Shown here in pieces: positions 3 to 33,523 of a stretch of 33,611 nt of DNA. The stretch is from contig JAUSCR010000002.1 in the NCBI GenBank assembly GCA_030651175.1, forward strand, positions 1 to 33,611, read 5' to 3'. The notes under the pieces were generated by a model. It saw nothing but the letters and a program-made list of their open reading frames with translations. It was not told the origin of the DNA and made no database searches. This DNA comes from Dehalococcoidia bacterium (GTDB taxonomy: Bacteria; Chloroflexota; Dehalococcoidia; Lucifugimonadales; SHYF01). The first letter of the stretch is position 1. The number at the start of each line of letters is the position of its first letter. Both the position numbers and the translations under genes were made by a program.

Positions 3-212
3 ACTGGCGGCGCTATCACCACGCCCACGGCCACTCCAACTCCGTCTCTGCCGCCAACGCCTACCTTCACGCCAACAGCGACGGCCACTTTCACGCCGAC
101 GCCCACTCCCACGGCAACGGCCACGCCAACGCCTACCTTCACGCCGACAGCGACCTTCACACCAACGGCAACGGCCACGTTCACGCCCACACCTACGCCC
201 ACGCCGTCGCTT
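3..212 (+). repeat. Degenerate ACGCC(A/C/G)AC... low-complexity tract encoding a (TP/TA/TF)n stalk
   Basis: Read directly; in-frame Thr-Pro repeat. Confidence 0.85.
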
Positions 213-1127
213 GAATCCATTGTCCCTCTGGTGAAGGACTCGGTGGTGAAAGTGATTTCCGGCGCCACCACAATCTCAGGCATGGTGGTGAAAGACCCGG
301 CCTCCCACGTCCTGACAGCCAGCAAGAATTTGGGCGCCGGGCCGCTGGTGACAATTCAAACGGGAGCTGGCCAAACTTACAATGGTTGGATTGTGGGGCG
401 GGACGACAACAAGAACCTGGCACTGATCAAGGTGGTGGGCGCTACCTTGCCAGGTATTGGGTGGGGAGACACCTTTGCCTTGGAGACGGGGAGCGAGATG
501 CTGTCCTTGGGATACCCCCTGTCCTCAGAGGGGAAGCTGCTTGCCGCGAACGCTAAACTTGCCGCCGCGCAACAGGATTTGAAGACTGGCTTGCGGTTCC
601 TGCCTCTGGATGTTCCGCATCGGACCGGAAACACTGGTGGACCTGCGGTCAACCGGCAGGGTCAAGCCATGGGCATCAGCATGGAGCCGCTGTTTGTGCA
701 GGGCTTGGGCATTCCTGTATCCGCTAGCGTTGTCTATCTCCTTAGCTCAGATTCTATTCTTGAGCTGCTTCCTCTGCTAAAACAGGGAGTGGTGGAAATG
801 GCGCGGCCTACTCCAACGCCAAACCCGGCGTTTGGGCCGCCGTCCTATACTACCTTCCAGGGCACCGTAAAGGTCGGTGGAAACGTGCCGCCTGCCGGGA
901 CGGTCCTCTATGCCCGAATGGTCAGCACAGGTTACGGTGATGTATGGGTTTCCACTAAAAGCGAAGAAGTGGTGAAAACGGCCGGCGCCTATTACCTGAC
1001 AGTAAACGCGATTGCCTCCCTGTACGGGGGTGTACCAATCGAGTTCTACATCAGTGGTGTGAAAGCCAACGAGACATCATCGTTCCAGCAGGGAGAGGCC
1101 GTTAACCTGAACTTGACATTCCCGTAG
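3..1127 (+). CDS. Trypsin-like (S1C/HtrA-type fold) protein with Thr/Pro-rich stalk, 5'-truncated by window edge; probable pseudoprotease
   Basis: Frame is open from base 3 through the listed GTG at 231 and encodes TPTPTFTPTATATF... before SVVKVISG...; GNTGGPAVN resembles the GNSGGPLVN motif; C-terminal beta-rich domain FQGTVKVGGNVPPAGTVLYARM. Stop TAG at 1125-1127. Confidence 0.8.
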   Translation, partial: TGGAITTPTATPTPSLPPTPTFTPTATATFTPTPTPTATATPTPTFTPTATFTPTATATFTPTPTPTPSLESIVPLVKDSVVKVISGATTISGMVVKDPASHVLTASKNLGAGPLVTIQTGAGQTYNGWIVGRDDNKNLALIKVVGATLPGIGWGDTFALETGSEMLSLGYPLSSEGKLLAANAKLAAAQQDLKTGLRFLPLDVPHRTGNTGGPAVNRQGQAMGISMEPLFVQGLGIPVSASVVYLLSSDSILELLPLLKQGVVEMARPTPTPNPAFGPPSYTTFQGTVKVGGNVPPAGTVLYARMVSTGYGDVWVSTKSEEVVKTAGAYYLTVNAIASLYGGVPIEFYISGVKANETSSFQQGEAVNLNLTFP

Positions 1128-1276
1128 CGGGTTGCCGAAAAAGGGGAGTCCAGAGGGGCGAAGCCCCCTCTGACGGGGGAGATGGGGGAACACCCCCATC
1201 TCTTCTCTCTTCTCACCCCCTTCCTTGAAGGAAGGGGGCAGGGGGATGGTCGAAAGAGTTCTTCGCCAGCCTGCTA
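1125..1276 (+). mobile_element. Three-hairpin MITE-like intergenic element, copy 1
   Basis: TAGCGGGTTGCCGAAAAAGGGGAGTCCAGAGGGGCGAAGCCCC...CCCCCTTCCTTGAAGGAAGGGGG...GGGGGATGGTCGAAAGAGTTCTTCGCCAGCCTGCTA; imperfect terminal inverted repeats. Confidence 0.75.
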
Positions 1277-2536
1277 CCGAGAGCTTCTTGCTTGAAGGTA
1301 GCCCAGCAGCCCCGCCGCGGGGACCTCTTCCTGGCTTCCGGCGTCCATATCCCGGACCACAACAGTGCCACGGGCCAGCTCATCTTCACCGAGGATGACA
1401 GTGAACCGCCCTTGCATTGCCGAGGCGTAGCGCATCTGGGAGCGGAGGCTCCGGTTGGCAGGTGGTATGACGACTGCTAGACCTGCCTTTCTAAGCTCCG
1501 CTGCTATTTGCAGCCCCTGGGCGTGCGCCTCTTCGCCAAGGCAAGCTATCAAAACGGGCGCGGAATACTCTTCCGGTACGCTGACCCCTTGTCGCTTCAA
1601 GTTAAGGATCAGCCGCTCTATGCCGGAGCCAAAGCCTATGCCGGGCGTGGGGCGTCCTCCTAAAGCCTCAATCAGGCCGTCGTAGCGTCCGCCGCCGACT
1701 ATGGTGCTCTGCCCGCCCTCCTCAGGGGGCTGAATCTCAAAGACGGTGCGTGTGTAGTAGTCCAGGCCCCGCACCAGCCTGTGGTTTATCCGGTAGGGGA
1801 TGTCCGCAAGCTTCAAGTAATCCTGGAGCCTGTTCCAATGCTCCTTGCATTCTGAGCACAGATAGTCGGTGGCGGTGGGGGCGCCGCCGATATACGGCTG
1901 GCACGTCTCCTGCTTGCAGTCCAGGAGGCGCAGTGGGTTGTTCTCGTAGCGGGTCCGGCAGTCAACACATACGTGCTCCAGGTGCTGTTGGTAGTAGGTT
2001 TTCAGCCTTCTCAGATATTCGGGCCGGCACTGAGCATCGCCGATGGAGTTGATTGAGAGGGAAAGGCCTTTCAGTCCAAGCTCCTGGGTAAGAAGCCATG
2101 CTATCTGGATAATCTCTGCGTCAACTGTGGGATCGGCCTCCCCAATGGCTTCGAGTCCGAACTGGTGATGTTGGCGGTAGCGGCCGGCCTGGGGGCGTTC
2201 GTACCGGAAGATGGGGCAGAAATAGTACAGGCGCACGGGCTGGGGCAGATTGGACATGCCATGCTCCAGGTAGGCACGGCATACAGGAGCGGTGCCCTCC
2301 GGGCGTAGGGTCAGCGGGTCGCCGCCCCTGTCTTCGAAGGTGTATGTCTCCTTCTGGACTATGTCTGTCTCCCCCCCCACCGTGCGTATAAATAGGCCCG
2401 CTGCTTCAAACATAGGGGTGTCTATGCGTTGGAATCCAAAACGCCGGCATAAGTCCACGGCATGGCGTTCAACGTAACGCCAGTATTTCTGCTCTTCGGG
2501 CAGCATATCTGCTGTGCCGCGGGGCGCTCGCTGCAT
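1274..2536 (-). CDS. hisS: Histidine--tRNA ligase
   Basis: MQRAPRGTADMLPEEQKYWRYVE..., RGLDYYTRTVFE, GGGRYDGLIEALGG, GFGSGIERL class II HisRS motifs. Confidence 0.97.
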   Translation of the reverse strand: MQRAPRGTADMLPEEQKYWRYVERHAVDLCRRFGFQRIDTPMFEAAGLFIRTVGGETDIVQKETYTFEDRGGDPLTLRPEGTAPVCRAYLEHGMSNLPQPVRLYYFCPIFRYERPQAGRYRQHHQFGLEAIGEADPTVDAEIIQIAWLLTQELGLKGLSLSINSIGDAQCRPEYLRRLKTYYQQHLEHVCVDCRTRYENNPLRLLDCKQETCQPYIGGAPTATDYLCSECKEHWNRLQDYLKLADIPYRINHRLVRGLDYYTRTVFEIQPPEEGGQSTIVGGGRYDGLIEALGGRPTPGIGFGSGIERLILNLKRQGVSVPEEYSAPVLIACLGEEAHAQGLQIAAELRKAGLAVVIPPANRSLRSQMRYASAMQGRFTVILGEDELARGTVVVRDMDAGSQEEVPAAGLLGYLQARSSR

Positions 2537-2696
2537 ATGGATACTCCCAGCTTAGTTCGTCACAGCTTATTCTACTTTAGCCTGACCGTAAAGGAGTTGT
2601 ACGAGGTAGTTCCTGGTTGCTTGGGGACAAGTCAAGGGCCAGGTCCACCCCATTCCTTCGGCGGGCTTTGAAGTTGGAGGCTGGTATGCGGTATAC

Positions 2697-4937
2697 TTGC
2701 TCATACAATGGGGTAAGATTGACCACTCAAGGGCGGGTGCTGTGCGCGACCTCATAGCCAAGATTGAAACCTATCTGCCGGACGACAGGGTTGCTTTCGT
2801 CCAGAAAGCCTACGAGTACGCTGCTCGGGCCCACGAGGGCCAGGTAAGGCTCTCAGGGGAGCCGTTTATCCAGCATCCCGTGGAGACGGCGCTCTATTTG
2901 GCAGACCTGCACCTGGACGCTACCACCCTGGCAGCCGCGCTGCTCCACGACGTTATGGAGGACTGTGGCGTAACCCAAGAGGAGCTGGAGGCCGAGTTTG
3001 GTAACGAGGTGGCGCGCTTCGTGGATGGCGTAACCAAGCTAAGCCGCCTGGACCGCGTTAGCACTGAGGGTGACGAAAGGGAACCGCGCAGTCGAGCGGA
3101 GGACCACGACCAGGCGGCCAGCCTGCGCAAGATGCTGGTAGCCATGGCCCGGGACCTACGGGTGGTGCTAATAAAGCTGGCCGACAGGCTGCACAACATG
3201 CGCACCCTGCAGGCCCATGGCCCCGAGCGGCGTCTTGCCATTGCCCAGGAGACCCTGGACATCTATGCTCCACTGGCCCATCGGCTGGGCATGTGGGACA
3301 TCAAATGGCGGCTGGAGGACCTGGCCTTTCAGTATCTTGAGCCGGACAGGTACAACCAGATATCCCGGCTGCTGGCCAGCGGCAGGGAGGAGAGAGAAGA
3401 GCACATCACCCGCGTGTCTGATATTCTCTCCAAGGCAATCCAGGAAGCGTCTATCAAGGCCCAGGTGACTGGCAGGGCCAAGAATATCTACAGCATTCAT
3501 ATGAAGATGCGGGCCTACGCAGCCCAGGGCAAGGATTTCAACGAGATACATGACCTTTTCGCCCTGCGCATCCTGGTACAGGAGAAGCAGGAGTGCTATG
3601 CCGCTCTGGGAGTGGTACACGCCCTATGGCCTCCCATCCCCGGCCTTTTTGATGACTATATAGGCAAACCCAAAGAGAATCTCTACCAGGCGCTGCACAC
3701 CACTGTAATGGGGCCCGAAGGAGTGCCGGTGGAGGTGCAGATCAAGACCAACGCCATGCATCAACTCTCGGAGTACGGAGTTGCAGCTCACTGGCGCTAC
3801 AAAGAAGGAAACGCTCCCGATACCCCCTTTGAGCAGAAGATGACTTGGCTCCGCCAGCTTCTGGAGTGGCAGAGGGATGTCAGTGGCGCTGAGGAGTTCC
3901 TGGAGAACGTCAAGACAGACATTTTCCCTGACCAGGTATTTGTCTATACCCCCAAAGGGGATATAAAAGAGCTGCCTGCGGGGTCCACCGCCATTGATTT
4001 CGCCTACCACGTCCACACCGATTTGGGACACAGATGCATTGGCGCGAAGGTCAATGGCAAGCTCATGGCCCTGGACTACGAGCTTCAGAACGGCGATACG
4101 ATAGAGATCCTGGCTAGCAAGGTGGCGCGAGGGCCTAGCCTGGACTGGCTAAACCCCAACGCAGGTTACGTAAGAAGCGCCACGGCCAAACACCGCATCC
4201 GTGCCTGGTTTCGACGGCAGGAGCGGAGCGCCAACATCCAGCGCGGCCATGAGCTTTTGGCGCGCGAGATGCGGCACCTTAACATGAACCCCTCGAATGA
4301 AGATCTGATGCGGCTTTTCAAGATGGATTCCATGGATGACTTCCTGGCTGCATTGGGCAACGGCAGCATCACCGTAAACCAGGTGGCCGCGCGATTAGCG
4401 CCCCAGCAGCCAGAGGAGCAGAACGCCCAGGAGCAAACCACCCCAGTGCCGGCGCCGGCATCCGGCGTCGAAGTGCTGGGCGTGGGCGACCTCCTAACAC
4501 ACCTGGCCCCCTGTTGCTCGCCTCTGCCCGGGGACGAGATCATTGGATTCATTACCAGGAACCGGGGGATCACAATCCACCGCAAGGAATGTCGAAATAT
4601 TCTCAATGAGGATGAAGCGGAGCGGTTGATCGGCGTGGACTGGGGCGTTACCAAGAACCTCCATCCTGTGCGGCTATCCATAGATGCGTGGGATAGGGTA
4701 GGGCTTTTGCGCGACATTACCACCCAAGTGTCTGCGGAGAAGGTCAACATTGCCGCTATGGTGACCAGGGAGAACGCCGATGGCACCGCCACAATTCAGC
4801 TAACCCTGTTTATCACGGGAGTGGACCAGCTCAGCCGCCTGTTCACCAAGCTGGAAGGAGTGCAAGGAGTTAACAACGTATCCCGCGTCACTGTTGATCA
4901 GGCCGCCTCGCCCGTGCAGGTGGGTGAGCGTGCCTGA
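2697..4937 (+). CDS. rel: Bifunctional (p)ppGpp synthetase/hydrolase, RelA/SpoT family
   Basis: HD motif HDVMED, synthetase domain (KPKENLYQALHTTV), TGS domain (VFVYTPKGDIKELPAGSTAIDFAYHVHTDLGHRCIGAKVNG), C-terminal ACT. TTG start is tentative. Confidence 0.95.
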   Translation: MLIQWGKIDHSRAGAVRDLIAKIETYLPDDRVAFVQKAYEYAARAHEGQVRLSGEPFIQHPVETALYLADLHLDATTLAAALLHDVMEDCGVTQEELEAEFGNEVARFVDGVTKLSRLDRVSTEGDEREPRSRAEDHDQAASLRKMLVAMARDLRVVLIKLADRLHNMRTLQAHGPERRLAIAQETLDIYAPLAHRLGMWDIKWRLEDLAFQYLEPDRYNQISRLLASGREEREEHITRVSDILSKAIQEASIKAQVTGRAKNIYSIHMKMRAYAAQGKDFNEIHDLFALRILVQEKQECYAALGVVHALWPPIPGLFDDYIGKPKENLYQALHTTVMGPEGVPVEVQIKTNAMHQLSEYGVAAHWRYKEGNAPDTPFEQKMTWLRQLLEWQRDVSGAEEFLENVKTDIFPDQVFVYTPKGDIKELPAGSTAIDFAYHVHTDLGHRCIGAKVNGKLMALDYELQNGDTIEILASKVARGPSLDWLNPNAGYVRSATAKHRIRAWFRRQERSANIQRGHELLAREMRHLNMNPSNEDLMRLFKMDSMDDFLAALGNGSITVNQVAARLAPQQPEEQNAQEQTTPVPAPASGVEVLGVGDLLTHLAPCCSPLPGDEIIGFITRNRGITIHRKECRNILNEDEAERLIGVDWGVTKNLHPVRLSIDAWDRVGLLRDITTQVSAEKVNIAAMVTRENADGTATIQLTLFITGVDQLSRLFTKLEGVQGVNNVSRVTVDQAASPVQVGERA

Positions 4938-5000
4938 TCATCTACATAGTGTAGTGCTTCTAACGCCTCGTTAGTCGTCGCTTGGTGGTGCTTGTCACAC

Positions 5001-5114
5001 GGGGGAGTCCAGAGGGGGTAACGACCCCCTCTGGAGGGGGAACTGGGGGGACACCCCCAGAACCTTTCCCCCCTTCCTCGAAGAAGGAAGGGGGGATTAA
5101 GGGGGATGGTTCGG
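5001..5114 (+). repeat. Divergent copy (copy 2) of the three-hairpin element, lacking recognisable terminal repeats
   Basis: GGGGGAGTCCAGAGGGGGTAACGACCCCCTCTGG / CTGGGGGGACACCCCCAG / CCCCCTTCCTCGAAGAAGGAAGGGGGG / GGGGGATGGTTCGG, same module order. Confidence 0.65.
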
Positions 5115-5186
5115 TACAGTGCAGATCGGCGGCGGTGCGGTGCAATCGCTAGAATAGGACTATTTGGACTTTAAGGAGAACACAAG

Positions 5187-5441
5187 ATGCCCAGTGAGAA
5201 ATCGGCGCGAGTTGCCTTGAAAAAGGCCGGGTATAATCGGCAGGTCAAGAGTGCCGCCAACACTGTTGTGGCTGCAACAAGGCGCACCATTGCTGCCGGC
5301 GACCCAGAGCAAGGTGTGGCTGCTGTGCGACGGGCTGCTGCGGCTTTGGACCGAGCGGCCAATGCAGGAGTCATCCACAAGAACAACGCCTCCCGGAGGA
5401 AGTCCCGTTTGGCCCGAAGTTTACCGGCAGTTGATAAGTAA
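5187..5441 (+). CDS. rpsT: 30S ribosomal protein S20
   Basis: 84 aa basic protein MPSEKSARVALKKAGYNRQVKSAANT...VIHKNNASRRKSRLAR; typical S20 C-terminus; AAGGAG upstream. Confidence 0.93.
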   Translation: MPSEKSARVALKKAGYNRQVKSAANTVVAATRRTIAAGDPEQGVAAVRRAAAALDRAANAGVIHKNNASRRKSRLARSLPAVDK

Positions 5442-5550
5442 GCAAGGCAGGTAGCCACCCAGGCATTCGGATGGGGCCGGGGCCTGAGGCAAGTCGTGCC
5501 TTGCTCATCGCGGATGCTTCCACGGCAAAACTGTTCTTAGCATTTTCTCA

Positions 5551-5579
5551 TTGACATGGGCTTCAGGGTGTGCTAACTT
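5551..5579 (+). promoter_or_regulatory. Sigma70-type promoter for lexA
   Basis: TTGACA (5551-5556), 17 nt spacer, TAACTT (5574-5579). Confidence 0.6.
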
Positions 5580-5594
5580 GTGGCTAGGCTGTCC

Positions 5595-5608
5595 AGAACA
5601 TGCGTACT
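5595..5608 (+). promoter_or_regulatory. Candidate LexA box
   Basis: AGAACATGCGTACT, close to the Gram-positive-type box CGAACRNRYGTTCG; lies just downstream of the predicted TSS. Confidence 0.5.
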
Positions 5609-5637
5609 ATGCAAAGTAGCACCCTTCGGAATAGGGG

Positions 5638-6285
5638 GTGACGGTGAAGAAGCTCTCGCCAAGACAAGAAAGCATACTTCAGTTCATAGGCGATTTCGTT
5701 GATGAGCATGGGTATCCGCCAACAGTCAGGGATATCCAGCAGGCGTGCAACATCAGCTCCACCTCCGTGGTGGACTATAATCTGAACATCCTGCAAAGGG
5801 AGAGCTACCTGCGCAGATCGCCCGAGATATCCCGAGGGATTGAAATCTTGAACGGCTCCAAGCGTCGCACCGGCACAGTTGCCGTTCCTCTGATGGGTTA
5901 CATCGCTGCGGGCCAGCCCCTGCCTGTTCTAACATCGGAGGATGGACGGCAGGGCGAGCCCCTGGAGATGCTGGAACTTCCCAGCGACCAGTTGAAGGGC
6001 GAAGGAAGCGTGTACGCCTTGCGCGTGCGTGGCACATCTATGATAGACGCCCTCATTGATGATGGCGATGTGGTGGTAATCAAGCCCACGGCCTCGGTGC
6101 GTAACGGGGACATGGTGGTGGCATGGCTGAAGAAGGAAAAAGAGGCCACTTTGAAGAAGATGTTCCACGAAGGTCATCGGGTGCGCTTACAGCCCGCAAA
6201 TAGCCAGATGAAGCCTATATTTGTTGCCCCATCGGACGTGGAGATACAGGGCAAGGTAGTAATGGTGATCCGGAAACTTTCCTGA
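5638..6285 (+). CDS. lexA: LexA repressor
   Basis: Winged HTH N-terminus (LSPRQESILQFIGDFVDEHGYPPTVRDIQQ), Ala-Gly cleavage site (GYIAAGQPL), catalytic Ser (RGTSM) and Lys (EATLKK). GTG start with upstream AGGGGG. Confidence 0.95.
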   Translation: MTVKKLSPRQESILQFIGDFVDEHGYPPTVRDIQQACNISSTSVVDYNLNILQRESYLRRSPEISRGIEILNGSKRRTGTVAVPLMGYIAAGQPLPVLTSEDGRQGEPLEMLELPSDQLKGEGSVYALRVRGTSMIDALIDDGDVVVIKPTASVRNGDMVVAWLKKEKEATLKKMFHEGHRVRLQPANSQMKPIFVAPSDVEIQGKVVMVIRKLS

Positions 6286-6430
6286 TCCGGTGGTGCGGGC
6301 CAAAGTAAGCCGTGGTCGGCAACAAAAAACCAGTAGGAGCTGCTTCCAAGGTTTCAATTGGAAACGGAACGAAGCCCCTGAGGCCCAAGGCCACCCTAAA
6401 TAGCCAGCAAGCTCGCTTTGGCTGCCGGCG

Positions 6431-6574
6431 TTAGTCGGAAGAGGGAAGTGTCCGCGCCTGCTGGAGGTCCATGTCCTTCTCATGGCACTGAATCGAGCCT
6501 TGGCTCGCCTTAGTGCAGAGAACCACAGTGCCACACACCGGACATTGATACCGTTTTCCTAGCTGGTTTGCCAT
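6431..6574 (-). CDS. Small zinc-ribbon protein (47 aa), missed by ORF track
   Basis: Manual translation MANQLGKRYQCPVCGTVVLCTKASQGSIQCHEKDMDLQQARTLPSSD; ATG with GGGAGGCAGGTTC upstream; CxxC...C pattern. Confidence 0.75.
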   Translation of the reverse strand: MANQLGKRYQCPVCGTVVLCTKASQGSIQCHEKDMDLQQARTLPSSD

Positions 6575-6629
6575 GAACCTGCCTCCCGTGCCGGCCCTGC
6601 GCATAACTTAGGGGTCAATGGAGAAGGGG

Positions 6630-6746
6630 CTATTTCTTGACGAGGGGCTTGCCGTGGCAGGCGATTGCCCCCTCGCCCCCCTTGGTAACAATGAACTCCG
6701 CGCCGCATGTGCCACAATAATACCGCTTTCCAGTCTCGTTGGCCAA
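6630..6746 (-). CDS. Small zinc-ribbon protein (38 aa), paralogue of the previous one, missed by ORF track
   Basis: Manual translation (TTG start) MANETGKRYYCGTCGAEFIVTKGGEGAIACHGKPLVKK; GGGGAT upstream; CxxC...CHG pattern resembling desulforedoxin-like zinc ribbons. Confidence 0.75.
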   Translation of the reverse strand: MANETGKRYYCGTCGAEFIVTKGGEGAIACHGKPLVKK

Positions 6747-6852
6747 ATTTCTATCCCCGTGTAAAGATTCTCTGGATGTGATTATATTCACGATGCCAGT
6801 GGGCGTCAACGGGTATGAGACCCTGTTTCTGTTTGCTATTGGGTGGTGGGGG

Positions 6853-6882
6853 CTTCTCCTGGCATTTTAGCGCCAGGAGAAG
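6853..6882. other. Perfect 11-bp stem hairpin in intergenic region
   Basis: CTTCTCCTGGC - ATTTTAGC - GCCAGGAGAAG. Confidence 0.6.
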
Positions 6883-7030
6883 GTCTAGCTAACCACCGAC
6901 TTGAGTCGGGGGACGGGAGGTCCCGCCGCAGCAAACGGAACCTTGCCGCCGGTGCCCTTGGCACAGATTCAAGGCCGTCGTATAATGAATAGTCTTTATT
7001 CTATTAGTCATCTCACGAGGGAGTGCTGAC

Positions 7031-8077
7031 ATGGCGCGTCCCAGGAACACTGCACCTAGGGAAACCCGCAGAACGGAGCCAAGCACTGGGCTTGAGGAGG
7101 TGACTCCTGAAGTCCTCTTGCGGTGGTACTCCAGCATGGTCTTGGTGCGCACCCTGGATGAGCGTGCCATGCTTCTGAACCGGCAGGGCAAGGCGGCTAT
7201 AGTTGCCTCCTGCCAGGGACACGAGGCAGCCCAGATGGGTGCCCTTTGGGCCGCCGTGCGGCATGCGCCCAGCCTCGCGATCTTTCCATACTACCGTGCC
7301 CTGGGCATGGCCATAGCCGCGGGAATAACACCCACTGAGGCGTTGCTGAGCATTCTGGCCAAGGTCGGGGATCCCACCAGTGGGGCGCGACAGTTTCCGT
7401 TGCACGGCGCCGTGCTGACCCCCAAGCTGAAGGTCATCAATACTTCCAACGTTGTTGCCGCCCAGATCCCTCATGCTGTTGGCTATGCCCTGGGGTGCAG
7501 AATGAGCGGCGATCCCACCGTGACCATTACCACCTTCGGGGATGGCGCTACCAGCCAGGGGGACTGGCACGAAGGGATGAACTACGCGGGGATCCACAAA
7601 CTGCCCGTGGTATTCATATGTGAAAACAACGGTTATGCTATTTCTGTGCCCCAGAGGAAACAGATGGCCATTGTCAATGTGGCCGACCGGGCAGCAGGTT
7701 ACGGCATGCCGGGGGTGGTGGTGGATGGGACCGATGTCATAGCGGTGTACGAGGTGGTCGGGGAGGCGGTCCGCCGTGCCGTCCAGGGTGGAGGCCCGAC
7801 ATTCATCGAAGCCAAGGTGGTGCGTCTTCTCCCTCATACCAGCGATGACGACGATAGGCGATACCGTACCTCGGAGGAGATAGAGGATCTGAAGAGGCGA
7901 GACCCTGTTAAGAAGTTCAAGGAGTACCTGCTTGAGCAGGGTATTTTGACGGCAGAGCTGGACGAACAGGTCCGCAAAGAGGCCAGGGAACAAGTGGACC
8001 GGGCCACAGCAGAAGCGGAAGCTGCCCCATTTCCAGATACGGGAGACTTCTATGAACATGTGTATGCCTCGGAATGA
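7031..8077 (+). CDS. pdhA: 2-oxoacid (pyruvate or branched-chain) dehydrogenase E1 alpha subunit
   Basis: TPP-binding motif GDGATSQGDWHEGMNYAGIHKLPVVFICENNGYAIS. Confidence 0.93.
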   Translation: MARPRNTAPRETRRTEPSTGLEEVTPEVLLRWYSSMVLVRTLDERAMLLNRQGKAAIVASCQGHEAAQMGALWAAVRHAPSLAIFPYYRALGMAIAAGITPTEALLSILAKVGDPTSGARQFPLHGAVLTPKLKVINTSNVVAAQIPHAVGYALGCRMSGDPTVTITTFGDGATSQGDWHEGMNYAGIHKLPVVFICENNGYAISVPQRKQMAIVNVADRAAGYGMPGVVVDGTDVIAVYEVVGEAVRRAVQGGGPTFIEAKVVRLLPHTSDDDDRRYRTSEEIEDLKRRDPVKKFKEYLLEQGILTAELDEQVRKEAREQVDRATAEAEAAPFPDTGDFYEHVYASE

Positions 8078-8121
8078 CACCCCCCGGAATTGAAAGTACC
8101 ATAGATTGAGGAGCTCCGCAT

Positions 8122-9105
8122 ATGGCAGTGAAATCCGTTATCGAGGCCATCCACGAGGCCATTTACGAAGAGATGAAGAGGGACCCCAACGTCTTCATCA
8201 TGGGTGAAGACGTTGGCAAGAGAGGTGGCGTCTTCCTGGCTACCAGGGGGCTCATAGAGGAGTTTGGCGAGGAGCGGGTCATAGATACGCCCCTGGCGGA
8301 ATCTTCTATTGCTGGGATAGCCCTTGGGGCGGCCATGCAGGGAAGGCGTCCCATTGCAGAGATCCAGTTCGCCGATTTCATCTGGCCCGCAGTGAACCAG
8401 ATCATTGGCGAGGCCGCACGGGTGCGCTATGGCACCAAGGGCGTACTGCACGCTCCCATGGTGGTGCGTAGCCCCTACGGCGGCGGCGTTCGGGGCGGAC
8501 TATTCCATTCGCAAAGTCCGGAAGCCTACTTCGCCCACACCCCTGGATTGAAGGTTGTATGTCCCTCTACCCCATACGACGCCAAGGGACTCCTGAAGGC
8601 CGCCATCCGTGACGAAGACCCGGTGGTATTCTTCGAACACAAGCGGACGTACCGATTGGTCCGCGGCGAGGTCCCGGATGAAGAGTATGTTCTGCCCATT
8701 GGCGTGGCCGACATCAAGCGGGCAGGGTCTGACATAACATGCATCTCCTATGGCTTGATGGTGCACTACTGCCTGGAGGCGGCGGAAACCCTGGCCAAGG
8801 AGGGCATCAATGTGGAGGTGCTGGACCTGAGAACCGTGCGCCCGCTGGACAAGGAGGCCATATTGGAATCCGTCCGCAAGACCGCACGAGTCCTGATTGT
8901 TCACGAGGACAACAGGACCGGTGGTATAGGCGCCGAGGTAGCCGCCACTATAGCTGAGGAAGGTTTCGCCTATCTGGATGCGCCTATCACCCGCGTGACC
9001 GGGCCCGACGTTCCAGCCATGCCCTTCAGCCCGCCGCTGGAAGATATGTTCATGCCCAATGCCGAGAAGATCGCGGCCGGCTTGCGCAGGGTGGCCTCGT
9101 ACTGA
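8122..9105 (+). CDS. pdhB: 2-oxoacid dehydrogenase E1 beta subunit
   Basis: MAVKSVIEAIHEAIYEEMKRDPNVFIMGEDVGKRGGVF..., RTVRPLDKEAILESVRKT. Confidence 0.94.
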   Translation: MAVKSVIEAIHEAIYEEMKRDPNVFIMGEDVGKRGGVFLATRGLIEEFGEERVIDTPLAESSIAGIALGAAMQGRRPIAEIQFADFIWPAVNQIIGEAARVRYGTKGVLHAPMVVRSPYGGGVRGGLFHSQSPEAYFAHTPGLKVVCPSTPYDAKGLLKAAIRDEDPVVFFEHKRTYRLVRGEVPDEEYVLPIGVADIKRAGSDITCISYGLMVHYCLEAAETLAKEGINVEVLDLRTVRPLDKEAILESVRKTARVLIVHEDNRTGGIGAEVAATIAEEGFAYLDAPITRVTGPDVPAMPFSPPLEDMFMPNAEKIAAGLRRVASY

Positions 9106-9181
9106 TTGCGGGCTGCTAGATTGCCGGTGGGCTGGCCCTCACTTGTATTAGATGAACTCCAAAAGGAGTGCTGGTTAGAAA

Positions 9182-10525
9182 ATGCCCGTAAAGATCAACC
9201 TTCCCCAAGTTGGCGAGTCGGTCACCGAAGGCATAATTGGCAAGTGGCTCAAAAAGGTCGGCGACACCGTAGACAGATATGAGCCGCTGGTGGAGGTTAC
9301 CACCGACAAGGTGAACATGGAGTTCCCTTCCCCCTACAACGGCAAACTGACAGCTCTGCTGGTCAAAGAGGGCGATACTGTTGCCATGGGCGCACCCATT
9401 GCGGAGATGGAGACGGCGGAAGCCGTAGTAGAGGAGGCGCCGCCCCGGACGGAGCGGGCAGCAACGCCCGTGGCCCGCACCGGCGTCCTCTTGAAAGACA
9501 CAAGGCCCGTGGGCCCCACAGGTTCAGGAGTGGAGAGTCCCGTCTCTGAACCGGCGGTGGCAATCCCGCCTTCGGCCCCCGCCGTTCCCAGTGCACCCAC
9601 GCCTTCGTCTCCCGTGCCCGCAGCAGAGTCGGCGAGGGGTGGCCAGCGGTATTCGCCCATAGTTCGCAGGCTGGCGGAGGAGCATGGCGTAGACCTGGCG
9701 CAAGTCAAGGGTACGGGACTGGATGGCCGCGTGACCAGAGAGGACGTTGCGAAATACGTGGAGCAGAGGGCAGCCGCTCCCGCGCCGGCAGCGCCCGCTG
9801 CACCAGCCGCTCAGGCCGCCGGGCCTGACGAAGAGGCTGTGCCGCTGACCCCCATACGGCGGATCATCGCCGACAACATGATGAAGAGCGCCACGCAGAT
9901 TCCCCAGGCCTGGTCAGCCCTGGAGGTGGATGTCACCTCCCTTGTGGCGCGCAGGGAGAGCGTAAAAGACGAGTTCCTGCGGCGGGAGGGTGTGCCCCTT
10001 ACTTACCTTCCCTTCGCCTTCAAAGCTGTTGCCGAGGCTCTCAAGGAAAATCCGCGCGTTAACTCCACCTGGGGTGGCGACAAGGTCATTCTGAAAAAGC
10101 GTATCCACATAGGAATTGCGGTAGCTACGTCCCAGGGATTGGTTGTGCCGGTCATCCACAATGCCGATTCCATGAGCATTGCCGGGCTGGCAAAGGCCTC
10201 CAACGAAATCATCCAGCGTGCCCGCGAAGGCAAGCTGCGTCTGGAGGATGTCCACGGCGGCACATTCACTCTGAACAACACCGGGGTCCTGGGGGCTGTT
10301 TTGACTCAGCCCTTGATCAACTGGCCCCAGGCAGCCATTCTCACTACCGAGGCCATTGTCAAACGGCCTGTGGTGCTGCCCGGCGACGCCATTGCAGTCC
10401 GCTCCATGATGTACATAGGCCTCACCTTTGACCATCGCATCCTGGACGGCGCCGACGCCGGAGCTTTCATGATCAGCGTCAAGCGCCGCCTGGAGGCCAT
10501 AAGCAAGGACACACCCATCTACTAA
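9182..10525 (+). CDS. pdhC: 2-oxoacid dehydrogenase E2 (dihydrolipoyl acyltransferase)
   Basis: Lipoyl domain VEVTTDKVNMEFPSP, peripheral subunit-binding domain, Ala/Pro linkers, catalytic TFDHRILDGADAG. Confidence 0.94.
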   Translation: MPVKINLPQVGESVTEGIIGKWLKKVGDTVDRYEPLVEVTTDKVNMEFPSPYNGKLTALLVKEGDTVAMGAPIAEMETAEAVVEEAPPRTERAATPVARTGVLLKDTRPVGPTGSGVESPVSEPAVAIPPSAPAVPSAPTPSSPVPAAESARGGQRYSPIVRRLAEEHGVDLAQVKGTGLDGRVTREDVAKYVEQRAAAPAPAAPAAPAAQAAGPDEEAVPLTPIRRIIADNMMKSATQIPQAWSALEVDVTSLVARRESVKDEFLRREGVPLTYLPFAFKAVAEALKENPRVNSTWGGDKVILKKRIHIGIAVATSQGLVVPVIHNADSMSIAGLAKASNEIIQRAREGKLRLEDVHGGTFTLNNTGVLGAVLTQPLINWPQAAILTTEAIVKRPVVLPGDAIAVRSMMYIGLTFDHRILDGADAGAFMISVKRRLEAISKDTPIY

Positions 10526-10696
10526 CAGGTTGCTGAAAAAGGGAAGTCCAGAGGGGCGAAGCCCCTTTGGTGGGGGTCTGGGGGTATCCCCCAGATATCT
10601 CTTACACCCCCCCCTTCCTGGCCAGAGCCTGTCCTGAGTAGGCCGTAGGAAAGGGGGATAGGGGGATGGTCGAAGGCGTTGTTCATCACCCTGCCA
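10523..10696 (+). mobile_element. Three-hairpin MITE-like element, copy 3 (with nested insertion in hairpin 3)
   Basis: TAACAGGTTGCTGAAAAAGGGAAGTCCAGAGGGGCGAAGCCCCTTTGGTGGGGGTCTGGGGGTATCCCCCAGA...GGGGGATGGTCGAAGGCGTTGTTCATCACCCTGCCA. Confidence 0.8.
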
Positions 10697-11385
10697 CAGT
10701 CTGCCGCTGGGCCTTCCTGGGCCGGTGGGAATACAAGCGGGCCTGGGACTTTCAGCGCTCCCTGGCCCAGGCCAGAGCCGAGGACATGGTAGGGGACATC
10801 ATGCTCCTTCTGGAGCACCCACCCGTCTACACCCTGGGGCGTCGCAGCAAGCCGTCGGACCTGCTGCTCCCACGAGAGGCACTGGAGGCCAAAGGTGCCC
10901 AGGTGGTTGACGTTGACCGGGGTGGGGAGATCACATTTCACGGCCCGGGCCAGTTGGTGGGGTATCCCATCATCTCTCTTCGGGCCTGGGGTGGCCCTCT
11001 CCAGTACGTGCGCGCCCTGGAAGAGGCGCTTATCCGTACCTTAGATGCCTACGGTATTTCCGCTGGACGCATAGAGGGCCTGACGGGCGTATGGGCTGGC
11101 GGCGCCAAGATAGCCGCCATAGGTGTGAAGGTCAGCCGGGGAGTCACCACTCACGGCTTTGCCCTCAACGTAGCCACCGACCTTTCCTGGTTCCAGAACA
11201 TTGTCCCCTGCGGCATCCGTGACCGGGATGTGACATCCATGGAGCGCCTGCTGGGGCGTCCCGTTCCGCTGCCGGAGGTGGCTTCCGTTGTGGCGGAACA
11301 GTTTGGCCAGGCCCTTGGATTCCAGATGGCGGCAGAGGCGACAGAGTCAGTGGTTGGCGACAAGCTACTGGCGTCCACTGTATAA
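10666..11385 (+). CDS. lipB: Octanoyl-[acyl-carrier-protein]:protein N-octanoyltransferase
   Basis: GGEITFHGPGQLVGYPI, KIAAIGVKVSRGVTTHGFALNV, FQNIVPCGI. Confidence 0.94.
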   Translation: MVEGVVHHPATVCRWAFLGRWEYKRAWDFQRSLAQARAEDMVGDIMLLLEHPPVYTLGRRSKPSDLLLPREALEAKGAQVVDVDRGGEITFHGPGQLVGYPIISLRAWGGPLQYVRALEEALIRTLDAYGISAGRIEGLTGVWAGGAKIAAIGVKVSRGVTTHGFALNVATDLSWFQNIVPCGIRDRDVTSMERLLGRPVPLPEVASVVAEQFGQALGFQMAAEATESVVGDKLLASTV

Positions 11386-11529
11386 CAGGCTGCTGAAAAA
11401 AGGAGAGTCCAGAGGGGCTTTGCCCCTCTGGTGGGGGTCTGGGGGTATCCCCCAGATTCGATCTTCACCCCCTTCCTGGCAGGAAGGGGGCAGGGGGATG
11501 GTCGAAGAGGGTTTTTCATCACCCTGCTA
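11383..11529 (+). mobile_element. Three-hairpin MITE-like element, copy 4 (most complete)
   Basis: TAACAGGCTGCTGAAAAAAGGAGAGTCCAGAGGGGCTTTGCCCCTCTGGTGGGGGTCTGGGGGTATCCCCCAGA...CCCCCTTCCTGGCAGGAAGGGGG...GTTTTTCATCACCCTGCTA. Confidence 0.85.
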
Positions 11530-11556
11530 ACAATTCAACGCTTGGAGGGGTGTGCT

Positions 11557-12564
11557 ATGGCAAAGCTACCAGTTGTCGCCATCACCATTGGGGACCCGTG
11601 TGGCATAGGGCCAGAGGTGGTGGCCAAGGCCCTGGCCAAGCAGGATGTCCGTGACCTGTGCATACCCCTGGTGGTGGGCAGCATTGCGGTAATGAGCCAG
11701 GCTCTAGCCCTGGTTCGCTCCCCTCTGCGCATACTGGAGGCCGCCGACGCCAAGGATGTCCACCCTTCACCGGATGGCATTTCTATACTGGACCCTCACA
11801 ACCTGAATGCAGAGGACGTTGTGCCGGGTCAGGTCTCCGCTGCGGCGGGAAAGGCAAGCATGGAGTGGGTGGAGCTGGTGGTGAAGCTATGTCTAAATGG
11901 GGCTGTGCAGGCCATGGCCACTGCCCCAGTGAACAAAGAGGCCGCTTCGGCGGCGGGCTACAAGGTGATTGGCCATACGGAGCTTCTACAAAAAATGACC
12001 GGCGCCACCAACGTGGCGACAATGCTGATGTCCGGAGGGCTGCGCGTGGTGCATCTCACAACCCATCGCTCTCTGCGCCGCGCGTGCGACGCCGTTACCA
12101 GGGAGAACATCCTGGCCAAGATAAGGCTGACCCATGACTATTTCAGGCAGTATGGATTCCCAAGCCCGCGCATCGGCGTGGCGGCGCTGAACCCCCACGC
12201 CTCAGATGGAGGTCTCCTGGGCGATGAAGAGGCCACAGCCATTGAGCCGGCGGTGGCTGAGGCTCGTGCCGGCGGAATAGATGCTACGGGGCCGGTGCCC
12301 GCGGACTCGGTGTTTCACCAGGCCATCAATGGGAAATACGATGCTGTGCTTTGCATGTACCATGACCAGGGGCACATACCCATCAAGGTCTATGGCTTTG
12401 AGCGCAGCGTCAGCGTGAACCTGGGCCTGCCCCTGGTCCGCACCTCCGTGGACCACGGCACCGCCTTTGACATAGCCGGGCAGGGAGTTGCCCAGGCGGT
12501 GAGCATGGCCGAGGCAATCAAGCTGGCGGCGTATCTGGCTTCTGGCCGCGGACTTCCCAGGTAG
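11557..12564 (+). CDS. pdxA: 4-hydroxythreonine-4-phosphate dehydrogenase
   Basis: MAKLPVVAITIGDPCGIGPEVVAKAL, TAPVNKEAASAAGYKVIGHTELL, MYHDQGHIPIKVYGF, DHGTAFDIAGQG. Start reset from 11431 to the ATG behind GGAGGGG. Confidence 0.95.
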   Translation: MAKLPVVAITIGDPCGIGPEVVAKALAKQDVRDLCIPLVVGSIAVMSQALALVRSPLRILEAADAKDVHPSPDGISILDPHNLNAEDVVPGQVSAAAGKASMEWVELVVKLCLNGAVQAMATAPVNKEAASAAGYKVIGHTELLQKMTGATNVATMLMSGGLRVVHLTTHRSLRRACDAVTRENILAKIRLTHDYFRQYGFPSPRIGVAALNPHASDGGLLGDEEATAIEPAVAEARAGGIDATGPVPADSVFHQAINGKYDAVLCMYHDQGHIPIKVYGFERSVSVNLGLPLVRTSVDHGTAFDIAGQGVAQAVSMAEAIKLAAYLASGRGLPR

Positions 12565-12593
12565 ATTGGATGGTATAATGAGCGACGCATTTC

Positions 12594-12717
12594 TAGTAGG
12601 CTGCTGAAAAAGGAGAGTCCAGAGGGGCAAAGCCCCTTTGGTGGGGGTCTGGGGGTATCCCTCAGATATACTTCCCACCCCCTTCCTGCCCAGGAAGGGG
12701 GCCAGGGGGATGGCCGC
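12594..12717 (+). mobile_element. Three-hairpin MITE-like element, copy 5 (right terminus missing, abuts proC start)
   Basis: TAGTAGGCTGCTGAAAAAGGAGAGTCCAGAGGGGCAAAGCCCCTTTGGTGGGGGTCTGGGGGTATCCCTCAGA...CCCCCTTCCTGCCCAGGAAGGGGGCCAGGGGGATGGCCGC. Confidence 0.8.
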
Positions 12718-13524
12718 ATGAAAATCGCTTTTATCGGTGGCGGCGTGATGGCTGAGGCCATAATCGAGGGCATTCTGCGCGGACGAGTGGCCCAGCCTGG
12801 GGATATATTCGTTGGCGAGCCAATAGAGGCCAGGCGTCAGCAGCTTGCCCAGCGCTACGGCATCGCCACCACTCAAGCGAACCTGGAAGCGTGCCAGCGG
12901 GGCGATCTGGTCATCCTTTCAGTCAAGCCGCAGAATCTTCCCGATGTGCTGGCGGAGCTCCGTGGGTCGCTGAGAAGAGAGCAGACTGTGGTCTCCATCG
13001 TTGCGGGGGCGCGCATGGAAACCATTACCTCAGGACTCCGACATGATAAGTTGATTCGAGTCATGCCCAATACGCCGGCCCAGATAGGGGCTGGAATGAG
13101 CCTGTGGCTGGCCTCCCCTTCGGTAAGCCAGGAGATCCGCGAAGCTGTCCGTGCTATTCTCAGCACCCTTGGCGAAGAGCTAGCGGTTGCGGAGGAGAAG
13201 TACCTGGATATGGCCACGGCCCTGAGCGCCAGTGGGCCTGCCTACGTCTTCCTATTCATCGAGAGCCTGATAGATGCTGGCGTATACATGGGAATGTCAC
13301 GAGACATGGCTAGAAAGCTGGCCGTGCAAACGGTGCTGGGCAGCGCCAGGTTTGTGCAAACGTCGGGCAAGCCGCCGGCGGAGCTGAGGGACATGGTCAC
13401 CTCGCCGGGTGGCACCACGGCGGAGGCTCTCAAAGTCCTGGAGGAGGGTCGCTTCCGGGCCACGGTGATCAACGCCGTGGCAGCCGCCTATGAAAAGGCC
13501 AAGAGTCTTGGAGGGCAAAAGTGA
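12718..13524 (+). CDS. proC: Pyrroline-5-carboxylate reductase
   Basis: MKIAFIGGGVMAEAIIEGIL; SGPAYVFLFIESLIDAGV; VTSPGGTTAEAL. Confidence 0.95.
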   Translation: MKIAFIGGGVMAEAIIEGILRGRVAQPGDIFVGEPIEARRQQLAQRYGIATTQANLEACQRGDLVILSVKPQNLPDVLAELRGSLRREQTVVSIVAGARMETITSGLRHDKLIRVMPNTPAQIGAGMSLWLASPSVSQEIREAVRAILSTLGEELAVAEEKYLDMATALSASGPAYVFLFIESLIDAGVYMGMSRDMARKLAVQTVLGSARFVQTSGKPPAELRDMVTSPGGTTAEALKVLEEGRFRATVINAVAAAYEKAKSLGGQK

Positions 13525-13775
13525 GCATTGGCCAGTTGATCAACGCCATAGGCACGTTCTTTTACATCGCTATCTTTGCCAGGGTGCTCCTATCCTGGTT
13601 CCCCCAGGTATCCACGACCAATCCACTGGTCCAGTTCGTCTTCACAGTCACGGAACCCATTCTGTCGCCTATCCGGAGGCTCTTGCCACGAATGGGTATG
13701 TTTGACCTCAGCCCCATGATAGCTCTCATCATGGTAGGTGTTATTCAGAGCGTCCTGCTGAAGGCGTTGGGTTAG
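13521..13775 (+). CDS. YggT family membrane protein
   Basis: 84 aa; FARVLLSWFPQVSTTNPLVQFVFTVTEPILSPIRRLLP and second hydrophobic segment; overlaps proC stop (GTGA). Confidence 0.88.
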   Translation: MSIGQLINAIGTFFYIAIFARVLLSWFPQVSTTNPLVQFVFTVTEPILSPIRRLLPRMGMFDLSPMIALIMVGVIQSVLLKALG

Positions 13776-13937
13776 AGGTTATTCGGAAAACCCTCACCCC
13801 CTTTGTCCCCCTCTCCCGCCTCAGGCGGGAGAGGGGGAGATGAAAGAAGCTGCGGGATACCCCCAGACCCCCAGCAGAAGGGGCTTTGCCCCGCTGCACG
13901 GGGAGTGCAGCGGAACAGGATTTCGAGAGAGCTTCTA
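13773..13937 (-). repeat. Divergent/chimeric copy (copy 6) of the three-hairpin element, minus orientation
   Basis: Minus-strand AGCGGGGCAAAGCCCCTTCTGCTGGGGGTCTGGGGGTATCCC followed by CCCTCTCCCGCCTGAGGCGGGAGAGGG replacing hairpin 3; termini TAGAGGTTATTCGGAAAACC and (minus) TAGAAGCTCTCTCGAAATCC resemble degraded terminal repeats. Confidence 0.5.
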
Positions 13938-14240
13938 GCGGGCCAGCAATCGCTCCATGGCCTCTTCCTGGCTCAGCCCTTGCACCGCCACAACCTTGTT
14001 TCTGGCCGTGAGACCTCGTAGGATTCGTATCCGCGTCTTGGGTACGCCCAGCAGGCTGGACAAGAACTCTATCAGTGCCTCATTGGCTCTGCCCTCTTTT
14101 GCAAGGGCCGCAACCCGCACCCGCACCACTCCGTTCGCCAGTCCCAGAATTTCACTGCGCTTGGCATTGGGCTGAACATGCAGGGCAAGACGCGTCTCTG
14201 TTGGGGACGTTTTCTTTGGTTGATTTTCTTGACGAGCCAT
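13935..14240 (-). CDS. DUF167 (YggU) family protein
   Basis: RLALHVQPNAKRSEILGLANGVVRVRVAALAKEGRANEALIEFLSSLLGVPKTRIRILRGLTARNKVV. Confidence 0.9.
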   Translation of the reverse strand: MARQENQPKKTSPTETRLALHVQPNAKRSEILGLANGVVRVRVAALAKEGRANEALIEFLSSLLGVPKTRIRILRGLTARNKVVAVQGLSQEEAMERLLAR

Positions 14241-14383
14241 AGCTTAACCACCATAATACGCCACGCCGGAGTTGGGTGTCTCCTTTGCCGATTCCGATGG
14301 CAAGCATGAGAGATGTACACACCCACCCGCCGATTGGATTGACTGGGTTGCGATATTCGTCGTCAATGCTCTTGGGCGTGGCC

Positions 14384-14558
14384 TAGCGGGCTATCGAAAA
14401 GGAGAGTCCAGAGGGGCGAAGCCCTTTTGACGGGGGTATGGGGGTGTCCCCCAGATTCAATCTTCACCCCCTTCCTGGCCAGAGCCTGTCCTTGAGCGTA
14501 GCGAAGGAAAGGGGGCCAGGGGGATGGTCGAAAGAGTTTTTCCGCACTCTGTCTGTTA
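14384..14558 (+). mobile_element. Three-hairpin MITE-like element, copy 7 (with nested insertion in hairpin 3)
   Basis: TAGCGGGCTATCGAAAAGGAGAGTCCAGAGGGGCGAAGCCC...GGGGGTATGGGGGTGTCCCCCAGA...CCTGGCCAGAGCCTGTCCTTGAGCGTAGCGAAGGAAAGGGGG...GTTTTTCCGCACTCTGTCTGTTA. Confidence 0.75.
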
Positions 14559-19142: not shown

Positions 19143-19160
19143 GGCCGCTCCTTTCCATGC

Positions 19161-19307
19161 TAGCAGGGTGCGGAAGAACTCTTCCGGCTATCCCCCTGGC
19201 CCCCTTCCTGGCCAGGAAGGGGGTATAAGATATATCTGGGGGATACCCCCAGACCCCCACCAGAGGGGCTTTGCCCCTCTGGACTCCCCTTTTTCAGCAG
19301 CCTGCTA
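19161..19307 (-). mobile_element. Three-hairpin MITE-like element, copy 8 (minus orientation)
   Basis: Minus strand TAGCAGGCTGCTGAAAAAGGGGAGTCCAGAGGGGCAAAGCCCCTCTGGTGGGGGTCTGGGGGTATCCCCCAGATATATCTTATACCCCCTTCCTGGCCAGGAAGGGGG...CGGAAGAGTTCTTCCGCACCCTGCTA. Confidence 0.85.
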
Positions 19308-19335
19308 GTAGGGCCTGTTTGCTCGGTGGTTTGCA

Positions 19336-31483: not shown

Positions 31484-31726
31484 GCCTTAAACCTCGCATC
31501 CTATTCAGACAGGAGTGAAGCCCTTCCCTGTCCACAGTCAGATAGGGAAGACCCTTCAGACAGCCTCTTGAGATCCCTTGTACCAGCCCTCGCACCACAG
31601 CCGCCTGCTGGCAATGCGAGGAAGCCCAGTGGCTTGTTATACCCCAACTCCCTAGAATTGCCCCATACTAAGTCACAGGAGTCACAGCCTTACCTGTAGC
31701 TTCTGTGGCAATAGGCACGCAATGCG

Positions 31727-33457
31727 CTACTTAAGTTCCAATGTCCAGATGGCGGTGGTGTAGGACATCAGTGGCCACGGCTTGTAGTCTTTGACCCGCG
31801 GGCCCAGGCCCCACGGCGTGTTCACGTAAAAAAGGCTGCCATTGCGACTATTATCCCGAAGGACTGTATAGACCTCCTGGTAGTTCTTGAACAGGGTGGC
31901 CGGGTCGGCAGGCTGCAACATTCTCTCTCCCACCAACTTGGCCATCTCTACACAGTCAGGGGCAACCGGATCACAGACGCGGCTCACTGAGGTTGGGGAA
32001 AAGTATTGGCTTCGAGTAATGCCAAGGCCGTTATAGCGGGCTTCATTGGGGCGGAACTCTATAATGCCTGGGAGCTGCCTGGCATTAGAGCGCGCGCCGA
32101 AAGAGGTAGCGTCACTCACCACCACCTCTATCTGCAAGCCCAGTTGTTTCCTCCACCCAGAAGCTACTGCCGACGCCAGCTCGACCACAAGGGGCAGCTC
32201 GTCTGCTTGAAAGGTGTACATCTTGATGACAGGCAGACCCTTTCCCTCAGGGAAGCCTGCTTGGGCCAGAAGCTCCTTGGCCTTCTTAACGTCATATGGG
32301 AATGGGTCCGTCACACCAGGCAAGTAGCCCATGGCATTAGGGGTCACATGGGCCCAGCCCTTTACGACAGCTATCTTCGGTCCATAAAGCTGTTGTACGA
32401 GGGTCTCCTTATCAATGGCGTACTCCAGGGCCTGACGCACCTCTTTCTTGTAGCACCACATATCAGGGGTCCAGCAGTCCCGGAAGATGAACCGAAGGTA
32501 ATTTGTCTCCTCTGTATAAACCACTTTGCCGCCAGCCTTCTCGATATCCGTCAACATAAACAGGTTGGCCTGAATCAGGTCCGCCTGCCCTGCTTGCAGT
32601 GCGGCAGAGCGGGTGGCAGCCTCAGGCACAATCCTCTGTATCAACCTGGTGAACTTGGGCCTACGGTCTTCAGGGAACCCGTTCTTCGGCTGGTAGTAAT
32701 AGTCGTCGAAGCGCTCAAATACTATCTCCTGCTGAGGGATGAAGGAGACGACCTTAAAGGGGCCAACGCCAACGGGCTTGGCCTCGTACCCGTCCTTGCC
32801 GACCTGATTCCAGTAGTCCATAGGTATGATGAACCCGTATGGGCCGTACCCTGCGCTAGAAAGGAAGTAAGCCAGGTCAGGCCGAGGCTCTTTCATGGTT
32901 ATGCGCACCTTATCGGGGTCAACCTTCTCCACGCTCTGGGTTCCCTGCGCAGTGGTCAGTGTCGTCGACGTCAGTTCACCTGCAGCAATACGAACTTTGG
33001 CTACCGCTCCAAAGCGACTATCCAGGCTTCCAAAGACGTCATCCACATTTATCGCCTCACCGTTGTGGGCCTTCACCCCGTCCCTGATGGTGAAGGTCCA
33101 GGCTTTGCCGTCAGGGCTCATTTCCCAGCTTTTGGCGATGCCGGGGGTTATCCCTCCGCTTTTGCCTGTCTCCTCCATCAAGGAGGTTTGAAACATCCGC
33201 CCGTATTGGAGGCCTATCTCGTCGATCCTGGTCGGGTCAAAGAGGCCGTTACCCGCCGTGTTGATCAGCTCGGTGACAGTCGCGCTCCGCACGCCTGTCG
33301 CCGGAGGCGGGGTTGTCACAGGGGTGGGAGTGGCAACAACCCCGGGTTTTGTCGGAGTAGGAGTCGCTTCTTCGCCCCCACAACCCACCACCCAACCAAA
33401 TACCAACAGAACCATACCAAGTAGCACGAAGTGCATCCAATCAGTTTTTTTTCTCAT
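31727..33457 (-). CDS. ABC transporter substrate-binding lipoprotein (SBP family 5)
   Basis: Signal peptide with lipobox VVGCGG, Thr/Pro linker, SBP_bac_5 features (MSPDGKAWTFTIRDGVKAHNGEAINVDDV, YAIDKETLVQQLYG). Confidence 0.94.
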   Translation of the reverse strand: MRKKTDWMHFVLLGMVLLVFGWVVGCGGEEATPTPTKPGVVATPTPVTTPPPATGVRSATVTELINTAGNGLFDPTRIDEIGLQYGRMFQTSLMEETGKSGGITPGIAKSWEMSPDGKAWTFTIRDGVKAHNGEAINVDDVFGSLDSRFGAVAKVRIAAGELTSTTLTTAQGTQSVEKVDPDKVRITMKEPRPDLAYFLSSAGYGPYGFIIPMDYWNQVGKDGYEAKPVGVGPFKVVSFIPQQEIVFERFDDYYYQPKNGFPEDRRPKFTRLIQRIVPEAATRSAALQAGQADLIQANLFMLTDIEKAGGKVVYTEETNYLRFIFRDCWTPDMWCYKKEVRQALEYAIDKETLVQQLYGPKIAVVKGWAHVTPNAMGYLPGVTDPFPYDVKKAKELLAQAGFPEGKGLPVIKMYTFQADELPLVVELASAVASGWRKQLGLQIEVVVSDATSFGARSNARQLPGIIEFRPNEARYNGLGITRSQYFSPTSVSRVCDPVAPDCVEMAKLVGERMLQPADPATLFKNYQEVYTVLRDNSRNGSLFYVNTPWGLGPRVKDYKPWPLMSYTTAIWTLELK

Positions 33458-33523
33458 GACAATATTCCTCCTTCATACTATGGCACTCCGTGCTCGCTCT
33501 TGCTGAATCCGTGGAACGCCCCG

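Follow-up and report, generated by a model that had tools for sequence, protein, structure and literature searches.

The Escherichia coli element IS5 inserts into a 4-bp target with the consensus C(A/T)A(G/A), CTAA and CTAG being examples (PMC11677980). For IS711 of Brucella, the target consensus is YTAR, and its many intergenic copies were read by the authors as insertion into neutral sites (PMC2266754, PMC3163539), with a duplication of TA only being reported (PMC2266754). The miniature inverted-repeat transposable elements (MITEs) known as Correia/NEMIS, RUP and ERIC are 100 to 200 bp long, with terminal inverted repeats, a palindromic interior and a mostly intergenic location (PMC2229807), and the high-copy Chunjie MITE of Geobacter uraniireducens, 178 to 235 bp and also mostly intergenic, is known for insertion into an operon (PMC10969869). 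No report of stop-codon overlap was found in the IS711 papers (PMC2266754, PMC3163539), and a limited search of the open-licence literature found no statement on stop codons within YTAR targets. Here, we analyzed a repeat of about 147 bp whose ends coincide with the stop codons of flanking genes in a 33,611-nucleotide stretch of a Dehalococcoidia bacterium (GCA_030651175.1, contig JAUSCR010000002.1, positions 1 to 33,611), referred to below as the window. The repeat is best read as a nonautonomous MITE derived from the IS5 family, whose ordinary YTAR target explains most of the coincidence with stops, a reading to which we give a probability of about 0.82.

The assembly comprises 2.48 Mb, and the analyzed sample consists of 100 stretches around copies plus the window, about 553 kb in total, the sampled loci being those that hold elements. 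Allowing up to 2 mismatches, the left terminus CRGGYTGCTGAAAAA has 226 matches in the 2.48-Mb assembly versus 15 in the control, indicative of about 200 copies. A 147-position profile built from copies in these stretches marked 178 nonoverlapping places in the sample, and the first copy in the window (copy 1) has 40 scored genomic relatives. Size variants reach about 250 bp, the interior is palindromic, and no transposase gene lies inside. In the best explanation, every insertion has the form NNY-TAR, followed by CAGGCTGCTGAAAAA ... CACCCTG and then YTAR.

The length of the target duplication is central to the argument. The tetramers at both element ends are mostly YTAR, preferably CTAG. In the 58 copies whose two ends both have TA, the preceding base agrees between the ends in 42 versus 33.2 expected (p 0.0007), and the following base agrees in 48 versus 42.0 expected (p 0.0017). 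A pattern scan of public genomes for the element terminus provided a multi-phylum set, counted throughout among the matches listed, in which the same terminus occurs in Nitrospirae, Deltaproteobacteria, Alphaproteobacteria, Acidobacteria, Planctomycetes, Chloroflexi and others. Defining a clean copy as one with both tetramers YTAR, 45 of 53 clean pairs in this set have identical tetramers, compared to 15.9 expected and with 0 of 5000 shuffles reaching this value; these 45 pairs are CTAG (19), TTAG (13), CTAA (10) and TTAA (3). Because left and right tetramers correlate in this genome and are largely identical in the multi-phylum set, the target duplication is 4 bp, YTAR and not TA. Therefore, the R belongs to the target DNA and not to the element, and a stop codon at the target is duplicated whole, as part of the tetramer.

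Autonomous elements that have the termini of the MITE carry identical YTAR duplications in Bradyrhizobium (CTAG/CTAG) and Sphingopyxis (CTAA/CTAA). Within the same order as the window, genome G004 holds autonomous elements of 1338 bp (CTAG/CTAG and CTAA/CTAA), and genome G005 holds one of 1363 bp (CTAG/CTAG). The terminal inverted repeats are shared, being CAGGCTGCTGAAAAA / CAGGGTGCGGAAGAA in the MITE, CAGGGTGCGGAAGAA / CAGGGTGCGGAAAAA in G005 and CAGGCTGCGGAAGAA / CAGAGTGCGGAAAAA in G004, and the MITE terminus CAGGCTGCTGAAAAA presumably differs from the termini of E. coli IS5. With the NCBIfam IS5 model NF033581 (transpos_IS5_4; cutoff, 140), the transposases of Sphingopyxis and G004 score 260 to 270 bits. 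Assignment to the IS1182 family was rejected, the partial matches of 203.4 and 221.2 bits lying below the cutoff of 270. Two further candidates for the partner were rejected on their termini: DDE_Tnp_1 matches in nine genomes and an IS1182-like element in genome G020 (L140/L271). Separately, MITEs of 110 to 210 bp from many phyla (stretches L141-L256) again have the terminus YTAR-CAGGSTGYTGAAAAAG, and several of them carry an inner inverted repeat of the CAGGCTGCTCAAAAAG type about 125 bp from one end.

How often, then, does an insertion fall on a stop codon? Of the 176 element ends in the sample that bear TAR, 45 (31 left and 14 right) coincide with the stop codon of a called gene. For the counts against background sites, clean copies were excised and sites next to other termini or partial elements were removed; many significance tests were run. 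Noncoding clean insertions lie on a stop in 22/47 cases in this genome, 11/21 in G029, another genome of the order, and 19/48 in the multi-phylum set among the matches listed, altogether 52/116 versus 19.2 expected from other noncoding YTARs. Coding insertions are nearly absent (1 of 117 clean insertions, the multi-phylum part again among the matches listed), while about half of the CTAG sites in this genome's stretches, 369/747, are coding. YTARs that serve as the TAR stop of two genes at once make up 8/2602 of the background but 4/116 of the clean insertions (p 0.001).

The explanation that we propose starts from this tetramer. The reverse complement of a YTAR is again a YTAR, and the TAR within it reads as TAA or TAG; therefore, any such stop that follows a pyrimidine would be a ready-made target, whichever strand carries it. 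Insertion there would leave the last codon and the stop untouched, with the duplicated tetramer bearing the stop. Selection would eliminate insertions into coding sequence, leaving short gaps in which the stop would often be the sole YTAR or one of few. Where convergent genes share one YTAR as both stops, an insertion would separate them while each retains its stop, as reconstruction suggests for copies 1 and 6 of the window.

Comparisons within the same gap, for gaps up to 400 nt with 46 observed on stops, follow this expectation. The preliminary description of the window had proposed a count against random TA insertion, and stop overlap does exceed that baseline (25.4 expected from any TA, p ~1e-9). 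The expectation rises to 37.5 when any YTAR is allowed (p 6e-4) and to 43.9 when only the same tetramer is allowed (p 0.16), the last comparison having 10 informative gaps and little power. Where the gap is no longer than 100 nt, CTAGs are occupied equally whether or not they are stops (odds ratio, 1.24; p 0.8). Since the excess vanishes for the same tetramer and CTAG use is equal in these short gaps, motif overlap and the near-absence of insertions from genes account for most of the coincidence, and special recognition of stop codons is for the most part needless.

Individual sites were compared to the congener G001 (Table 1). All six coincidences of stop and terminus named in the preliminary description are present, and Pfam confirms the flanking genes as trypsin-like protease, hisS, pdhC-type E2, lipB, yggT and DUF167. 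Copy 1 had been read as an element supplying new stops to both genes at an empty site TAC. This does not hold, as the orthologous insertion in G001 has GTAG on the left and CTAG, in place of the window's CTAC, on the right. The ancestral target was likely CTAG, already the stop of both convergent genes; in that ancestor, the protease gene would have ended in CCC TAG and hisS in CGC TAG, with later synonymous changes of CCC to CCG and CGC to CGG. Copy 3 is also present in G001, with a CTAG tetramer and TAG in place of the window's TAA. At copy 4, G001 lacks the element and ends lipB in ACT GCA TAA with the stop at the same codon, so that the TAA of lipB is native, as the preliminary description had suspected.

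Copy 6 had been described as an element running stop to stop. Both stops and both YTAR tetramers are there, fitting an ancestor with a shared double stop, but the family profile matches in the interior alone (positions 24-134, reversed, at 13786-13899). It was ruled out as an ordinary full copy on its outer ends, which differ from those of the family, and no pairs turned up when its termini were used to look for a second family. With the outer ends AGGTTATTCGGAAAA / AAGCTCTCTCGAAAT, the copy looks like a chimera or like a member of another family that has YTAR tetramers.

Table 1 MITE copies and target tetramers in the window
Feature	Position	Strand	Details
Left target tetramer, copy 1 (GTAG)	1124-1127	+	TAG 1125-1127 is the stop of the trypsin-like protease gene; GTAG also in the G001 orthologue
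Copy 1, core	1128-1273	+	nhmmer 101.7 bits; profile 1-147 matching 1125-1276
Right target tetramer, copy 1 (CTAC)	1274-1277	-	hisS stop TAG 1274-1276 (minus); CTAG in G001
Copy 2, fragment	5002-5111	+	Profile 19-122; no usable termini
Left target tetramer, copy 3 (CTAA)	10522-10525	+	TAA 10523-10525 is the stop of pdhC-type E2
Copy 3, core	10526-10693	+	135.8 bits; right tetramer 10694-10697 decayed to CCAC
Left target tetramer, copy 4 (ATAA)	11382-11385	+	TAA 11383-11385 is the lipB stop
Copy 4, core	11386-11526	+	132.0 bits; right tetramer CTAA 11527-11530
Copy 5	12593-12723	+	Left tetramer CTAG 12593-12596; profile 1-130; right end missing; extends into proC
Copy 6, divergent relative	13772-13938	-	42.5 bits; tetramers TTAG 13772-13775 and CTAG 13935-13938
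yggT stop at copy 6 (TAG)	13773-13775	+	
DUF167 stop at copy 6 (TAG)	13935-13937	-	
Copy 7	14383-14551	+	Left tetramer CTAG 14383-14386; right tetramer degraded; at no called-gene stop
Copy 8	19160-19308	-	150.7 bits; intact CTAG on both sides (19160-19163, 19305-19308); not at a stop

Some other features of the window stand apart from the question of targets. The start of proC, at 12718, lies inside the remnant of copy 5 (window 12594-12740), and part of the proC leader may come from the element. The protease-like gene has an 18-bp periodic Thr/Pro-rich tract at its start (window 34-213). Two 90-nt direct copies, 93% identical, are located at 31725-31814 and 33522-33611, in or beside a large minus-strand gene (31727-33457), suggestive of a tandem gene duplication truncated where the window ends.

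Several points weigh against the explanation by the YTAR tetramer. Besides the few informative gaps of the same-tetramer comparison, gene calls came from a home-made tool based on codon statistics. With stratification by data set and tetramer, the pooled excess over noncoding YTARs is large (Mantel-Haenszel odds ratio, 4.9; z 8.6), and among the CTAGs of convergent gaps no longer than 400 nt, occupancy is much higher at stops than at nonstop sites (15:36 versus 1:25, p 0.008); both go beyond motif overlap, which does not fully cover them. At copy 4, the tetramers ATAA and CTAA are unmatched, and the spacer downstream in G001 is longer and different, for which a later deletion beside the element may be responsible. 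Finally, a search for an IS5-type transposase in the window's own assembly gave no match, its partners being those in relatives and other phyla; because of this, mobilization of the MITE in trans by a related transposase is deduced from relatives. A residual bias toward gene 3' ends is left, which could come from selection or from targeting. The preliminary description had offered these two, as a preference for the TA of stop codons or as survival of harmless insertions; both have some truth, and the main cause is an ordinary tetramer that contains stops.

Selection by itself, acting on random insertion over YTAR so that copies on stops survive best for disturbing no coding sequence, ribosome binding site, promoter or terminator, is a tentative alternative that we rate a little short of even. 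It is favored by the scarcity of coding insertions and of copies upstream of genes, and also by orientation, because copies between codirectional genes of this genome share the strand of the genes in 79 cases and lie opposite in 18 (n = 97, p 3e-10), which suggests selection on transcription effects; in G029, the same strand was used in 19/30, which is not significant. However, the share of copies on stops does not rise with age (33, 26 and 41% from the most to the least conserved third, no trend), though harmful copies may vanish fast, and convergent spacers, expected to be nearly neutral, are little used away from stops. The same spacers speak for active targeting, whereby the transposition complex would favor stops or gene 3' ends beyond the tetramer, guided by DNA structure, transcription termination or a host factor. 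Occupancy of noncoding YTARs declines with distance from the nearest 3' end, from 15.4% at the stop to 7.8% at 1 to 25 nt, 4.5% at 26 to 100, 3.4% at 101 to 300 and 1.2% beyond, and from 20% to 8%, 2%, 1% and 0 over the same distances in convergent gaps, which are free of promoter effects; moreover, the pattern appears independently in this genome, G029 and the multi-phylum set (among the matches listed). Targeting nevertheless appears unlikely, since stop and nonstop CTAGs are occupied alike in gaps up to 100 nt and no excess remains once tetramer and gap are fixed, while distal sites may fall in uncalled genes, promoters or terminators and selection can yield the same gradient. It is similarly doubtful that IS5-type machinery actively prefers gene 3' ends or stop YTARs as a safe-site strategy across phyla; if true, such a preference would let these elements multiply in compact genomes with genes unbroken.

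Two other explanations fare worse than these. Copies might be kept at gene ends for a recruited function, their hairpins serving as terminators or protectors of mRNA 3' ends and their termini adding stops, in line with the palindromic interior, the gene-end position and the orientation bias. Yet terminator-like sites in the window (20 versus 15.4 +/- 3.6 in shuffles) show no clear excess, an Rfam search found no match, many copies are degraded, and no function is needed to account for the overlap, making this role improbable. The model of the preliminary description, in which an IS630/Correia-type element duplicates TA and its first base completes a new TAA or TAG at each end, so regenerating the stop, is very improbable. 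TA is indeed always central, and the present copy 1 (GTAG/CTAC) fits without mutations, but in G001 the right tetramer of copy 1 is CTAG, and the outer tetramer bases match between ends, including CTAA/CTAA, TTAG/TTAG and TTAA/TTAA pairs, which a TA duplication with fixed element ends could not produce. An IS630/Tc1-type MITE such as Correia or RUP is likewise ruled out, the duplication being 4 bp and not TA.

For the reading preferred here, the YTAR target of an IS5-derived MITE, the consequences are practical as well as evolutionary. A self-complementary target with TAA or TAG on either strand would in itself provide the transposon with harmless places to insert where genes are densely packed, even between convergent genes that have a single stop tetramer in common, and it offers a simple, testable reason for about 200 MITE copies in a 2.5-Mb genome. 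The corrected length of the duplication also matters when empty sites and gene ends are reconstructed. Compared to known systems, the element resembles IS5 in its 4-bp target duplication and in its autonomous relatives, which have the MITE termini and exceed the NF033581 cutoff, but it differs in having no gene and a length of about 147 bp. With IS711, it shares the YTAR target and many copies between genes, whereas IS711 is autonomous, 842 bp long and reported to duplicate TA, while the MITE duplicates YTAR. Chunjie, compared by size and location, is likewise a high-copy, mostly intergenic MITE. Correia/NEMIS, RUP and ERIC are similar in size, inverted repeats, palindromic interior and intergenic location; their termini, however, are of the TA type, with RUP linked to IS630, in contrast to the YTAR target and IS5-type transposase of the MITE described here.

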